DNA of 64,000 nt from Nitrosopumilus zosterae (GTDB lineage: Archaea > Thermoproteota > Nitrososphaeria > Nitrososphaerales > Nitrosopumilaceae): positions 860,038-924,037 of the forward strand of contig NZ_AP026695.1 of the NCBI RefSeq assembly GCF_025998175.1, read 5' to 3'. The position numbers and the translations under genes were made by a program. Below, in pieces: positions 3,125 to 48,521 of the stretch (position 1 is the first letter of the stretch; each line of letters begins with the position of its first letter). The notes beneath the pieces were generated by a model, which saw nothing but the letters and a program-made list of their open reading frames with translations, searched no databases and had not been told where the DNA came from.

Positions 3125-5293
3125 TTGAAAGTTGCATTGATCTATAATGAAGATGTTATTGATCCTAATGATGTAATTAACGTCTTTGGGATGACAACAA
3201 AAGAACATTACAGTACAAAGGCTGTGGAGAGAGTTGCAAGAGCTTTAGAAAAAGGGGGACATACAGTAAAAGTTGTTGAAGGCGATATTCATCTTGCTGA
3301 CGAATTACGTGAATTCATGCCAAAGGTAGTTGCTGGTGAAAACCCTGGAATGGTTTTCAACATGGCATATGGTATTCAAGGTCAGAATAGGTATACTCAT
3401 GTTCCTGCTATGATGGAAATGCTCGGAATACCATACATTGGATCAGGCCCCGCAGGTCATGCAATTGTCCAAGATAAGGTTCTGACCAAGATTGTTTTAC
3501 AAAAAAATAATATTCCGACACCTGGATTTTGGGTGTTTAGAACTCCTGAGGATACTTATGATGATTTAGTTTTCCCTGTAATTGTAAAACCAAAACTAGA
3601 ATCTACCTCTATGGGGATGGAGGTGGTAAATAACTGGGACGATCTTCATGCCGCAGTAAAAGTGCAGATTGAAAAATTTGAGCAAGACATACTGGTGGAG
3701 CAATTTATTTCGGGTAGAGAGTTTGCAGTGGGGTTGTTAGGAAATACTCCTAACGTAGATGTTCTTCCAATTGTTGAAATCAATCTTGATCATCCTGATC
3801 AAATACAAACAATTTCAGATAAAAAACAAAAAGGCGGTGTTAATAAAACATGTCCTGCAAAACTATCCAAAGAAAAAATAGACGAGATAAAGCAATTATG
3901 CATAAAGGCATTTAGCTGTTTGGGATTAAATGATTACAGTCGAGTTGATTTCAGAATGGATAAAGATGAAAATCTTTACATTCTTGAATTAAATTCCATG
4001 GCAAGTCTTGGAATGAGTGGTTCCTTTTATTATGCTGGGCAGACTGCTGGGTATACATACGATTCATTAATCAATAAGATTTTAGATGTTGCAGTTATTC
4101 GATATTTCGGATCATCAATACAACCACAAGATGCCGATGTTGATCTTACTCAACCACTACGTGTTGTTGCTAGAACCTATCTTAGAGGTCACCTACAAAG
4201 TTTAAAGGAAACTCTGAGGGGATTTGTAAACCTAAATACCCATGTATATAATATTGAAAATGTAAATCAGTTAGGAGCGACAATTTCCAAGCGATTAAAG
4301 CATCTTGGGTTTAGGGAACATATTCACCGACAACACGAGGTTGGAAATTTCTATTATTTCAAAAATCATTCTGAATCTCAAAATGATGTTTTACTAGTAT
4401 CTCATCTTGATACTCATTATGGACCAGATGATTTGATTAGTTATTACGAGGATAATGACAAAATTGTCGGTTCTGGCATAGCTGAAAGTAAAGGTGGGTT
4501 AGCAGTTATGCTGGGATCATTGCACGCATTAAGATTTGCAAAAAAACTCAAAAAAATAAGATGTGGCATATTGCTTACCACTGATGATAGTTTGGGAGGT
4601 CGCTATAGCAAGAGATTTGTTAAAGAATACTCTAAAAAATCTAGATATATTCTTGGGTTAAAATCTGCAAGCAAAGATGGTGGAATAATTACTACATGTT
4701 ATGGAAGAAGTGACTACCAAATTAGATTTACCAGTACTGGCGACCAATTAACTTCTGACATTCATGGCATAATTCCAGTTTTAGCAAAAAAGTTATCTGC
4801 TATTGAGAAACTTTCAAAAGATGAAAAAGACTATCGGTTAAGAACCACTTCTATTGTTTCAAAGGGCTCTCATGGTCAGACTCCTAATTTTGCAACACTG
4901 ACATTGATTTGCAGTTACAAAACAACAAAGTTGGGTGATCTACTTGATACAAAAATCCAGTCAATCATGAAAAAGAGAGAAACTGGTTCACAAAAGTTAG
5001 ATGTATCAATAAATAAAATTCAAACGAGACCTCCCGTGGTAGAAGAGCCATCTGATACAAAATTCTATGAACTAGTAGATGATCTTGCTAAAAAACATGA
5101 AATAAAAATCAAAAAACACTCTCAACTCATATCTTCTGATATCTGTAATGTCCCAGTTAAACTTCCTGCATTAGATGGATTTGGTCCAATAGGCCATAAT
5201 TATCGTTCGGCAAAAGAATACATTCTTCATGACAGTATTGTTGAGCGTGCAGCACTGTTGGCATCAGTTCTCTTCAAATGTGCTGAGAAATAA
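3125..5293 (+). CDS. ATP-grasp (D-Ala-D-Ala ligase-like) fused to degenerate M20-like peptidase domain
   Basis: Residues 1-330 are an ATP-grasp ligase of the D-Ala-D-Ala ligase type: lid/ATP Lys in FPVIVKPK at 150-157, VEQFISGREF at 191-200, and metal-binding VDFRMD at 274 and ILELNS at 286-291. Residues 370-722 resemble an M20 zinc peptidase: SHLDTH at 426-431, GIAESKGG at 451-458, TTDDS at 485-489 and a late His at 702. M20 enzymes normally have D-x-KGG and an EE pair, so ESKGG and DDS suggest altered metal binding. The start must be TTG, because an in-frame stop (TGA) lies just upstream. Archaea lack peptidoglycan, so the substrate is probably another amino acid or peptide conjugate (inference). 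Confidence 0.8.
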   Translation: MKVALIYNEDVIDPNDVINVFGMTTKEHYSTKAVERVARALEKGGHTVKVVEGDIHLADELREFMPKVVAGENPGMVFNMAYGIQGQNRYTHVPAMMEMLGIPYIGSGPAGHAIVQDKVLTKIVLQKNNIPTPGFWVFRTPEDTYDDLVFPVIVKPKLESTSMGMEVVNNWDDLHAAVKVQIEKFEQDILVEQFISGREFAVGLLGNTPNVDVLPIVEINLDHPDQIQTISDKKQKGGVNKTCPAKLSKEKIDEIKQLCIKAFSCLGLNDYSRVDFRMDKDENLYILELNSMASLGMSGSFYYAGQTAGYTYDSLINKILDVAVIRYFGSSIQPQDADVDLTQPLRVVARTYLRGHLQSLKETLRGFVNLNTHVYNIENVNQLGATISKRLKHLGFREHIHRQHEVGNFYYFKNHSESQNDVLLVSHLDTHYGPDDLISYYEDNDKIVGSGIAESKGGLAVMLGSLHALRFAKKLKKIRCGILLTTDDSLGGRYSKRFVKEYSKKSRYILGLKSASKDGGIITTCYGRSDYQIRFTSTGDQLTSDIHGIIPVLAKKLSAIEKLSKDEKDYRLRTTSIVSKGSHGQTPNFATLTLICSYKTTKLGDLLDTKIQSIMKKRETGSQKLDVSINKIQTRPPVVEEPSDTKFYELVDDLAKKHEIKIKKHSQLISSDICNVPVKLPALDGFGPIGHNYRSAKEYILHDSIVERAALLASVLFKCAEK

Positions 5294-5350
5294 TTTTTAT
5301 TTTAATATTTTTTTCCTGTGTTGAATTAAACAAAATCTACCCGTTGACTA

Positions 5351-5485
5351 TCAAACCTTACGAATGATTTCAGAATCATTGTTGACAAAATTTCCACATG
5401 TTTCACAAAGCCAAAATGTTACATTTTCTTCTTTTATCCATTTTGGTAATCTTCGATTATTACATATTTTACAAAATAATGACAT
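5351..5485 (-). CDS. 44-residue zinc ribbon protein
   Basis: The frame encodes MSLFCKICNNRRLPKW, then a linker and LCETCGNF, giving two CxxC knuckles 22 residues apart: a classic zinc ribbon. It lies opposite a 71-codon plus-strand frame that lacks any such pattern, so the minus strand is the coding one. Function is unknown; zinc ribbons of this size are often transcription or translation accessory factors. Confidence 0.65.
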   Translation of the reverse strand: MSLFCKICNNRRLPKWIKEENVTFWLCETCGNFVNNDSEIIRKV

Positions 5486-47358: not shown

Positions 47359-48117
47359 TTAGTTTTGAGGAGAATCCAGAATATTTTTCTGAAAATTCCC
47401 AATTACTCGATTAAAAACCACAAATGATAATGCGGCACCGATTCCTGCAAATACAAGCATTACAATGGTAAAATCAGAACCTGTGAAATTTAACAAGCTG
47501 GAATATGGATCAAAATAAGGGGTTCCAGAACCTGCACCGGGATTTGAGACTACGGAATCCACCTTTGTTTTTGCCATATATAGTGATTCATCAACAGAAT
47601 TGACTAGTCCAGTTCCAGAAATCTTTACAGGCAAAATAAAATCAGAATACCAATTTTTTATAGGATTAAGAAGACTGCTTTCTGCTGTAACCATAACTAA
47701 TGAAAGTGCAGTTATTGCCGAAACAATTCCCATTCCAAAGAATTTAGAAATAGAATTAAAAGATCGAATCAATAATTTGCTTTGTTTTGTTTTCTCAGTA
47801 ATCTTTGATGGAGTTATTATTATTGCAAGATTGGATGTTTTGTAATAATTCATGTTTCGTGCTTTGCAGTTTTTTTCAGTCTTGGAAATTTGTATTAATT
47901 CAATCTGTTGCATTTTATCCAAATAATACTTTACAAGCTGCAAGGACATGTTTGTTTTTTGTGCAATTTCATTTGCGGTTAACTCATTGTAAAATAACAA
48001 ATTCAAAATTTCTATGCTGGATTTATTAGAGATAACTTTGGCTAAAATTTTTAATTTTTCATCATCCAAAGAAAAAATATTTACAGAATTATCTGCATGT
48101 AAATTGTTATTGCTCAT
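47359..48117 (-). CDS. Membrane-bound winged-helix regulator with extracytoplasmic GSGTPxF loop
   Basis: Residues 28-90 (numbered from an ATG 24 nt upstream) form a winged helix: ILNLLFYNELTANEIAQKTN, then MSLQLVKYYLDKMQQIELIQ. Two membrane spans at about 133-152 and 222-245 enclose an outer loop with NPGAGSGTPYF. This is a membrane-anchored one-component regulator. The start at MSNNNL is preferred because a TATA-like CATACTATG lies about 27 nt upstream. The divergent gene encodes a protein with the same GSGTPxF motif. Confidence 0.7.
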   Translation of the reverse strand: MSNNNLHADNSVNIFSLDDEKLKILAKVISNKSSIEILNLLFYNELTANEIAQKTNMSLQLVKYYLDKMQQIELIQISKTEKNCKARNMNYYKTSNLAIIITPSKITEKTKQSKLLIRSFNSISKFFGMGIVSAITALSLVMVTAESSLLNPIKNWYSDFILPVKISGTGLVNSVDESLYMAKTKVDSVVSNPGAGSGTPYFDPYSSLLNFTGSDFTIVMLVFAGIGAALSFVVFNRVIGNFQKNILDSPQN

Positions 48118-48209
48118 AGATATCATACTATATGACAACATAGTATGTAAGTATTAGTGAAATAATAATTTCATCAAACGCTTTATGTGAATTTCACGTA
48201 GTTGTGTCA

Positions 48210-48521
48210 ATGAGTGAAAAGAAAACAATCATGGCAGCAGGAGTGATGTTGAGCCTTTTGATATTACCTTCTGTCAGCCTTGCATTTGCACAATACATTC
48301 CAAGTCAGGGACAAACTGGACTTGATGACCTAATGAAACTCTCAGAGGAACGAGTTAGAATAGCCAAAGAAAACCCACATACAGGTTCTGGAACCCCCAT
48401 GTTTGCATTAGATGGAGTTTTAGGAGCACTACTTTTATCGACTGGGGTGTTTGGTGGAATTGCCACTGCATTTTTTGTCAAAGGTCGCAAGGGAAAATAT
48501 GCCGCAATGGGAAGAGGATGA
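48210..48521 (+). CDS. Small two-span membrane protein with GSGTPxF motif
   Basis: A signal/anchor span (KKTIMAAGVMLSLLILPSVS), an outer segment of about 40 residues with ERVRIAKENPHTGSGTPMF, and a second span (VLGALLLSTGVFGGIATAF) with a basic tail. The outer motif NPHTGSGTPMF parallels NPGAGSGTPYF in the divergent membrane regulator. ATG 48210 fits a TATA-like ACGCTTTATGTG about 27 nt upstream; a GTG two codons earlier is also open. Confidence 0.65.
   Translation: MSEKKTIMAAGVMLSLLILPSVSLAFAQYIPSQGQTGLDDLMKLSEERVRIAKENPHTGSGTPMFALDGVLGALLLSTGVFGGIATAFFVKGRKGKYAAMGRG

Follow-up and report, generated by a model that had tools for sequence, protein, structure and literature searches.

Why should a membrane-anchored DNA-binding protein and the small membrane protein encoded beside it carry the same motif on the outside of the cell? 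The question was raised by two divergent genes in a window of 64,000 nucleotides from Nitrosopumilus zosterae (contig NZ_AP026695.1, positions 860,038 to 924,037 of the forward strand). A sequence-only reading of this window had noticed the motif in both proteins and proposed that they bind one outside ligand, or each other, and form a signalling pair. It had also pointed to a CorA-like transporter encoded just downstream.

The first gene (47359..48141, minus strand; 260 aa as called) encodes a membrane-anchored winged-helix regulator that belongs to clade A of the family described below; judged from its orthologues, translation probably starts at 48117 (codon 9). The second gene, here named AmoZ2 (48204..48521, plus strand; 105 aa, with a conserved start ATG at 48210), is separated from the first by a gap of 62 bp between the ORFs as called. 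A check of the ORFs confirmed that two adjacent membrane proteins share the outside motif, with NPGAGSGTPYF in the regulator and NPHTGSGTPMF in AmoZ2, each at the place first reported. The regulator consists of an ArsR-like winged helix, a K/R-rich stretch, TM1 (residues ~133-152), about 70 outside residues and TM2 (~223-242), followed by a basic tail. AmoZ2 comprises a signal peptide ending in LAFAQ, an ecto helix, the motif NPHTGSGTPMF, a single TM and the basic tail VKGRKGKY; the motif forms the end of its 29-residue segment (48372..48407, plus strand; approximate, hand-computed). Judging by the charge pattern around the TMs, the regulator motif is predicted to be extracytoplasmic, and the charge pattern of AmoZ2 likewise places its motif outside. 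Charge and signal-peptide signals agree with the outside placement proposed earlier for both motifs.

The motif of eleven residues was real, but its extent had been underestimated. The shared feature is an ungapped segment of 29 residues, formed by a helix followed by NPxxGSGTPxF, and is the signature of a known protein, AmoZ, which is reported as a subunit of archaeal ammonia monooxygenase (AMO). In the regulator, this AmoZ-like ecto-segment corresponds to residues 193-221 (SVDESLYMAKTKVDSVVSNPGAGSGTPYF; 47479..47565, minus strand, approximate to ±1 codon). The ungapped match between the regulator and AmoZ2 scored 54, compared with 35 +/- 3.7 for shuffled sequences (z = 5.0), and related pairs reached z = 17. 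An AmoZ profile matched the regulator ecto-segment with E = 5e-7 in its own genome and with about 1e-8 to 1e-18 in relatives. The predicted local shape is the same in the regulator and AmoZ2 (helix, NP, loop, TM). At the DNA level, the pattern of the motif occurs at five sites in the 1.775-Mb genome, namely in the regulator, AmoZ2, a second copy termed AmoZ1, one aminotransferase-like enzyme and, in one case, out of frame of the gene concerned. As judged by these comparisons, the likeness exceeds chance, and the ecto-segment of the regulator was shown to be homologous to that of AmoZ. It is made up of a helix and a short loop, with no conserved metal ligands or Cys/His residues.

AmoZ and AmoY were described as Nmar_1507 and Nmar_1506, encoded 1-2 genes from amoABCX in most Nitrosopumilaceae (PMC10030591). 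AmoZ1 (110 aa, C1:248101-248427), the second and housekeeping copy of the small protein in the window genome, lies in a locus with the order amoA, amoX, amoC, amoB, two small genes, a gene for an 89-aa membrane protein, AmoZ1 and the gene for ribosomal protein S15. Because this order fits the position of Nmar_1507 in the amo cluster, AmoZ1 was equated with the published AmoZ. The amo genes were named from their own sequences, with amoA recognised by reading the locus; the PF02461 (AMO) profile gave no match in the window genome, and none of the controls matched it either. In a Nitrososphaera-like genome, the homologues of AmoZ and AmoY adjoin S15 and have masses of 12.4 and 9.3 kDa, compared with 12.8 and 9.6 published for N. 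viennensis. This AmoZ homologue contains two Cys, and a disulfide has been predicted for AmoZ (PMC10030591). The role of AmoZ as a subunit of archaeal AMO is indirectly supported; the N. viennensis protein failed the correlation analysis by BN-PAGE, and among subunit combinations in the satisfied cross-links the exception concerned AmoZ (PMC10030591). Searches of the PDB retrieved no AmoZ relative by sequence and no archaeal AMO structure, and a literature search retrieved no papers on Nmar_1507 other than the AMO paper.

GSGT is invariant across an alignment of 30 AmoZ sequences. AmoZ2 matched the AmoZ profile over its full length, with GSGTP, the TM with FGG and the basic tail retained; it was itself part of the AmoZ alignments, and reciprocal support came from a single-sequence search. 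Its identity to AmoZ1 amounts to 44-48% across most of the length. Since AmoZ2 sits outside the amo cluster, from which it is separated by ~660 kb, it was termed a paralogue and not AmoZ itself. On this sequence evidence, the small protein of the window is a paralogue of AmoZ, an extra copy that is present in part of the Nitrosopumilaceae. It is like AmoZ (NVIE_004550 / Nmar_1507; PMC10030591) in its architecture, GSGTP signature, TM and basic tail, but unlike AmoZ it is encoded outside the amo cluster, beside a regulator, and has a palindrome in its promoter. Neither an AmoZ paralogue like AmoZ2 nor a regulator with an AmoZ segment is described in PMC10030591. Members of the AmoZ family were found in 141 of 151 Nitrosopumilaceae. 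In the wider order, the AmoZ profile matched in families f1 (the Nitrosopumilaceae), f8, f2 and f3, with one borderline match in f10 (E 7e-4). Families f8 and f2 have amo genes at the loci read, and the AmoZ family tracks the ammonia-oxidiser families.

The winged helix of the regulator matched HTH_24 in Pfam (E 2e-5), and its predicted structure resembles the ArsR-type proteins NolR, SmtB and CzrA (Foldseek E 5e-5 to 1e-3); AlphaFold confidence is low beyond the winged helix. The score against NF033788 (ArsR/SmtB metalloregulators) was 19.8 bits, far short of the NCBIfam cut-off of 55 bits for this curated family. The regulator is of the same winged-helix type as ArsR/SmtB regulators but adds two TMs and an outside segment. 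No published work on this regulator family was found in a literature search. The window genome also contains two paralogues of the regulator, which are divergent to genes for an exported beta-propeller (PF09826) and a SIMPL protein (PF04402) and have an inverted repeat of their own near -61 (gene pairs L067 3286-4077 and 4221-6437; L068 3862-4542 and 2995-3768).

The intergenic region contains the inverted repeat TTAGTGAAA-TAATAA-TTTCATCAAA (48154..48178), a putative operator common to both genes. It is followed by a probable TATA box of the AmoZ2 promoter, GCTTTATG (48180..48187, plus strand), located ~25 bases 5' of the ATG; its position is kept in all four clades (A to D) of regulators with the AmoZ segment, and the right arm of the palindrome overlaps the probable BRE. 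In clades A to D, the TATA box of the AmoZ paralogue is preceded by the palindrome TTTGRTGAAA-N6-TTTCATCAAA, which is perfect in nearly all members of clade C (TTTGATGAAA-N6-TTTCATCAAA). The palindrome core has one exact copy in the window genome. In clade B, where the genes are arranged in tandem, the inverted repeat still lies 5' of AmoZ2. Where a paralogous regulator adjoins a beta-propeller or SIMPL gene, a repeat variant of its own is mostly present at about -61. When the best inverted repeat of any kind was searched for, the results were noisy except in clade C and the paralogue groups. The conservation of the repeat before AmoZ2, even in the tandem arrangement of clade B, is good support for binding of these palindromes by the family and for AmoZ2 being a target. 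A second inverted repeat, CATACTAT-N8-ATAGTATG, is located at 48124-48147 of the window, near the start of the regulator ORF; it may be due to chance, since it is not conserved in relatives.

For a census of the family, 84 distinct regulators were collected by similarity to the window regulator, and the set is for this reason biased towards its relatives. The AmoZ segment was found in 35 of them (degenerate in one case), and 33 of these 35 have an AmoZ-type gene within 700 bp; the exceptions are L060, on a truncated contig, and L222, with a degenerate segment. None of the 49 regulators devoid of the segment has an AmoZ neighbour (Fisher p 2e-21, to be read as a strong association and not as a probability, because related genomes are not independent). 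The earlier impression of a conserved pair with the appearance of a signalling unit is supported. Nearly all orthologues of the regulator and of AmoZ2 retain the motif, and neither of the refuting conditions set in the sequence-only reading, loss of the motif from orthologues or a predicted position inside the cell, applies. In a tree of the winged helix, the segment occurs in clades A (the window genome, with named records including Nitrosopumilus and Nitrosarchaeum), B (genus g18, including Nitrosomaritimum khambatensis), C (g9 and relatives) and D (one genome), and GSGTP is retained in nearly all regulators of these four deep clades.

The clades differ in what their segments resemble. In clade A, the helix part has diverged and mostly shares 4-10 of 22 residues with AmoZ, a weak likeness, so that homology rests on NP-GSGTP, the spacing and the intermediate clade C, whose segment is ~50% identical to that of the partner AmoZ. 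Clade B is sister (100/96) to 17 regulators that have neither the segment nor an AmoZ neighbour; a beta-propeller gene adjoins 16 of these 17 and 7 of the 8 clade B members, in which AmoZ2 has been added in tandem. The clade B segment shares 14-18 of 22 residues with the AmoZ1 of the same genome in five of seven genomes (the other two have 8 and 11), as against 4-6 of 22 with the neighbouring AmoZ2, and it is closer to its own AmoZ1 than to the segments of other regulators. Because it resembles AmoZ1 and not the neighbour, the clade B segment was probably captured separately. A single ancient gain followed by one loss appears the weaker reading; the winged-helix tree has a minimum of two changes and leaves the deep order open.

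AmoZ is not the only protein whose sequence recurs in this family. Membrane winged-helix regulators of three genera have an AmoA-like outside segment (L247 2892-3587, minus strand; L249 2787-3479, minus; L127 5505-6197, plus; L257 2466-3185, minus), and none of these four has an amoA neighbour. In L247, the segment LELAFKYPRPTLPPFMAPVGPQSG is identical to LETAFKYPRPTLPPYMTPIEPQVG of the AmoA from the same genome in 20 of 30 aligned residues (z = 17.7); the matches in L127, L249 and L257 are shorter. A protein of 113 aa from the genus of the window genome (L256 3005-3346, minus strand; G046:C1) has two hydrophobic stretches and contains the exact AmoA stretch TLPPYMTPIEPQVGKF (z = 15). Shuffle z-scores for AmoA were calculated for L247 and L256 only, and a DNA pattern for TLPPYM that allowed just CTN codons for leucine was too restrictive for a count of AmoA-type regulators. 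In AmoA itself, the copied stretch is followed directly by the last hydrophobic stretch; it bears no resemblance to the AmoZ segment. In a further clade, ANTGSVSLDRTVYPxP is common to the regulator and its divergent beta-propeller partner (z 8-10), and a looser form of it is frequent in exported proteins of ammonia-oxidising archaea. An AmoZ ecto-segment was also found at the N-terminus of an exported vWA protein (PF00092) of genome G143, which belongs to the genus of the window genome (L122 3353-6397; G143:C1:1440000-1448000), with no TM after it. The gene adjoins an AmoZ paralogue as well as a regulator in decay that has this segment too, and the relatives of this vWA protein in G129, G124 and G049 have other N-termini in its place.

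Archaeal AMO performs a large part of the world's nitrification, and to our knowledge it is not known how ammonia-oxidising archaea sense and adjust this enzyme. We favour, at slightly better than even chances, an AMO-derived sensing module in which the regulator mimics AmoZ, reads the status of AMO and controls AmoZ2. The outside segment would be a copy of the AmoZ ecto stalk, with an amphipathic helix, NPxxGSGTPxF and then a TM. The regulator would bind the intergenic palindrome, probably as a dimer, and would control AmoZ2 and probably its own gene. By imitating AmoZ outside the cell, the regulator could take the place of AmoZ on the AMO complex, or on a factor that assembles it, and its segment would compete for that place. 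The occupancy would be set by the amount of unfilled AMO or free AmoZ and would alter the oligomeric state or the DNA binding of the regulator. As output, AmoZ2 would go up or down, and this alternative AmoZ would be able to replace AmoZ1 in AMO. The AMO complex, or a binder of its subunits, is the likely object of recognition because clade B copies AmoZ1 and the AmoA-type regulators have no amoA neighbour. The predicted control of AmoZ2 by the regulator is well supported. We infer that the regulator senses AMO, and the same applies to its DNA binding, the direction of control, docking on AMO and the role of AmoZ2 as an exchangeable subunit. In a more general form, to which we give somewhat less than an even chance, ammonia-oxidising archaea would have a family of membrane one-component regulators that sense the assembly or occupancy of the key enzyme by mimicry; each would display a copied segment of AmoZ, AmoA or its own exported partner and compete for the binding place of that protein, and in the AmoZ case the supply of a spare AmoZ subunit would be adjusted. 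On the mimicry reading, the AmoZ segment would have been copied in four clades and the AmoA segment in three genera.

Other readings account for parts of these results. The ecto-segment might bind AmoZ or AmoZ2 through helix pairing at the membrane. Free AmoZ would then exert feedback on the AmoZ2 gene, with no direct sensing of AMO. The nearly constant AmoZ neighbour of segment-bearing regulators and the likeness of the clade C segment to its partner fit such pairing, and a free pool of AmoZ may exist, because much AmoZ was found outside the AMO band in BN-PAGE of N. viennensis (PMC10030591). We nevertheless regard it as unlikely, given that the clade B segment resembles AmoZ1 and not its neighbour, that AmoA-type relatives have no adjoining amoA and that helix pairing per se needs no copied sequence. 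The proposal made in the sequence-only reading, in which both proteins recognise a single small ligand outside the cell, or form a private pair by binding each other, agrees with the conserved adjacency and the conserved common segment. It has become improbable, since a segment devoid of conserved metal ligands and Cys/His turned out to be the signature of AmoZ and occurs in the AmoZ1 of almost every family member, whether or not the pair exists, and since clade B copies AmoZ1 and other family members copy AmoA or different segments.

A similarly small chance is given to the view that one common factor, be it a membrane protease, a chaperone or an insertion factor, recognises the segments, with the regulator being freed or stabilised while this factor is busy with AMO subunits. 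The copying from two AMO subunits and from exported partners, and the exact AmoA stretch in a small two-TM protein, would be in line with it. By contrast, the vWA protein of G143 has no TM after its segment, and a single recognition rule is not obvious for AmoZ and AmoA segments that are so dissimilar. That the segment is left over from a fusion with an adjacent AmoZ copy, or from gene conversion by it, and has no sensing role, appears highly improbable. Additional copies of AmoZ are frequent and certain clusters are in decay, for instance in G143, but GSGTP has been kept in nearly all members of four deep clades and the clade B segment is not derived from the neighbour.

The AMO-derived sensing module has parallels in known systems. 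BlaR1/MecR1 (PMC5957439) are like it in principle, as their outside sensor is homologous to one class of beta-lactamase, the effector they control. BlaR1, however, binds a small molecule covalently and works with a zinc protease and a separate repressor, whereas the regulator described here combines a DNA-binding domain and a short segment in one protein; its Pfam and NCBIfam matches include neither a penicillin-binding sensor nor a zinc protease domain. By this comparison, it is not a BlaR1/MecR1 member, and the resemblance is one of principle only. The Kuenenia Amt-histidine kinase (PMC5764959) is also a sensor built from an effector of nitrogen metabolism, in this case an ammonium transporter. 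It joins a whole transporter domain to a kinase and senses ammonium, whereas the DNA-binding protein described here has no more than 29 residues of an enzyme subunit and is not a member of that group. The locus supplies a concrete regulator, a putative operator and, as the target, a spare AmoZ subunit. The GSGTP segment of AmoZ and the TLPPYMTPIEP segment of AmoA are candidate docking sites on AMO and may be important because they are copied. Together, the results suggest that ammonia-oxidising archaea monitor their key enzyme with a sensor that mimics part of the enzyme itself.

Some further observations concern the surroundings of these genes. The CorA gene adjoins the pair in just two genomes, that of the window and the one most closely related to it. 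Because synteny is limited to these two genomes, the metal link via CorA is unsupported, and a partnership with CorA was rejected. In one Nitrosopumilus genome (L021/L045; G143:C1:1405098-1409145), the AmoZ2 member of the pair is frameshifted and the adjoining regulator ORF is apparently open. In genus g4, the gene for a P-II (PF00543) nitrogen regulatory protein has in its vicinity an extra AmoZ copy that is almost identical to AmoZ1 (L133 4028-4396 with 5094-5426; L135 3278-3607 with 4287-4685). Three loci from the genus of the window genome (L128, L130 and L131) contain another extra AmoZ without this regulator, divergent from the gene for an exported protein of ~366 aa and followed by two other proteins that resemble HTH regulators.
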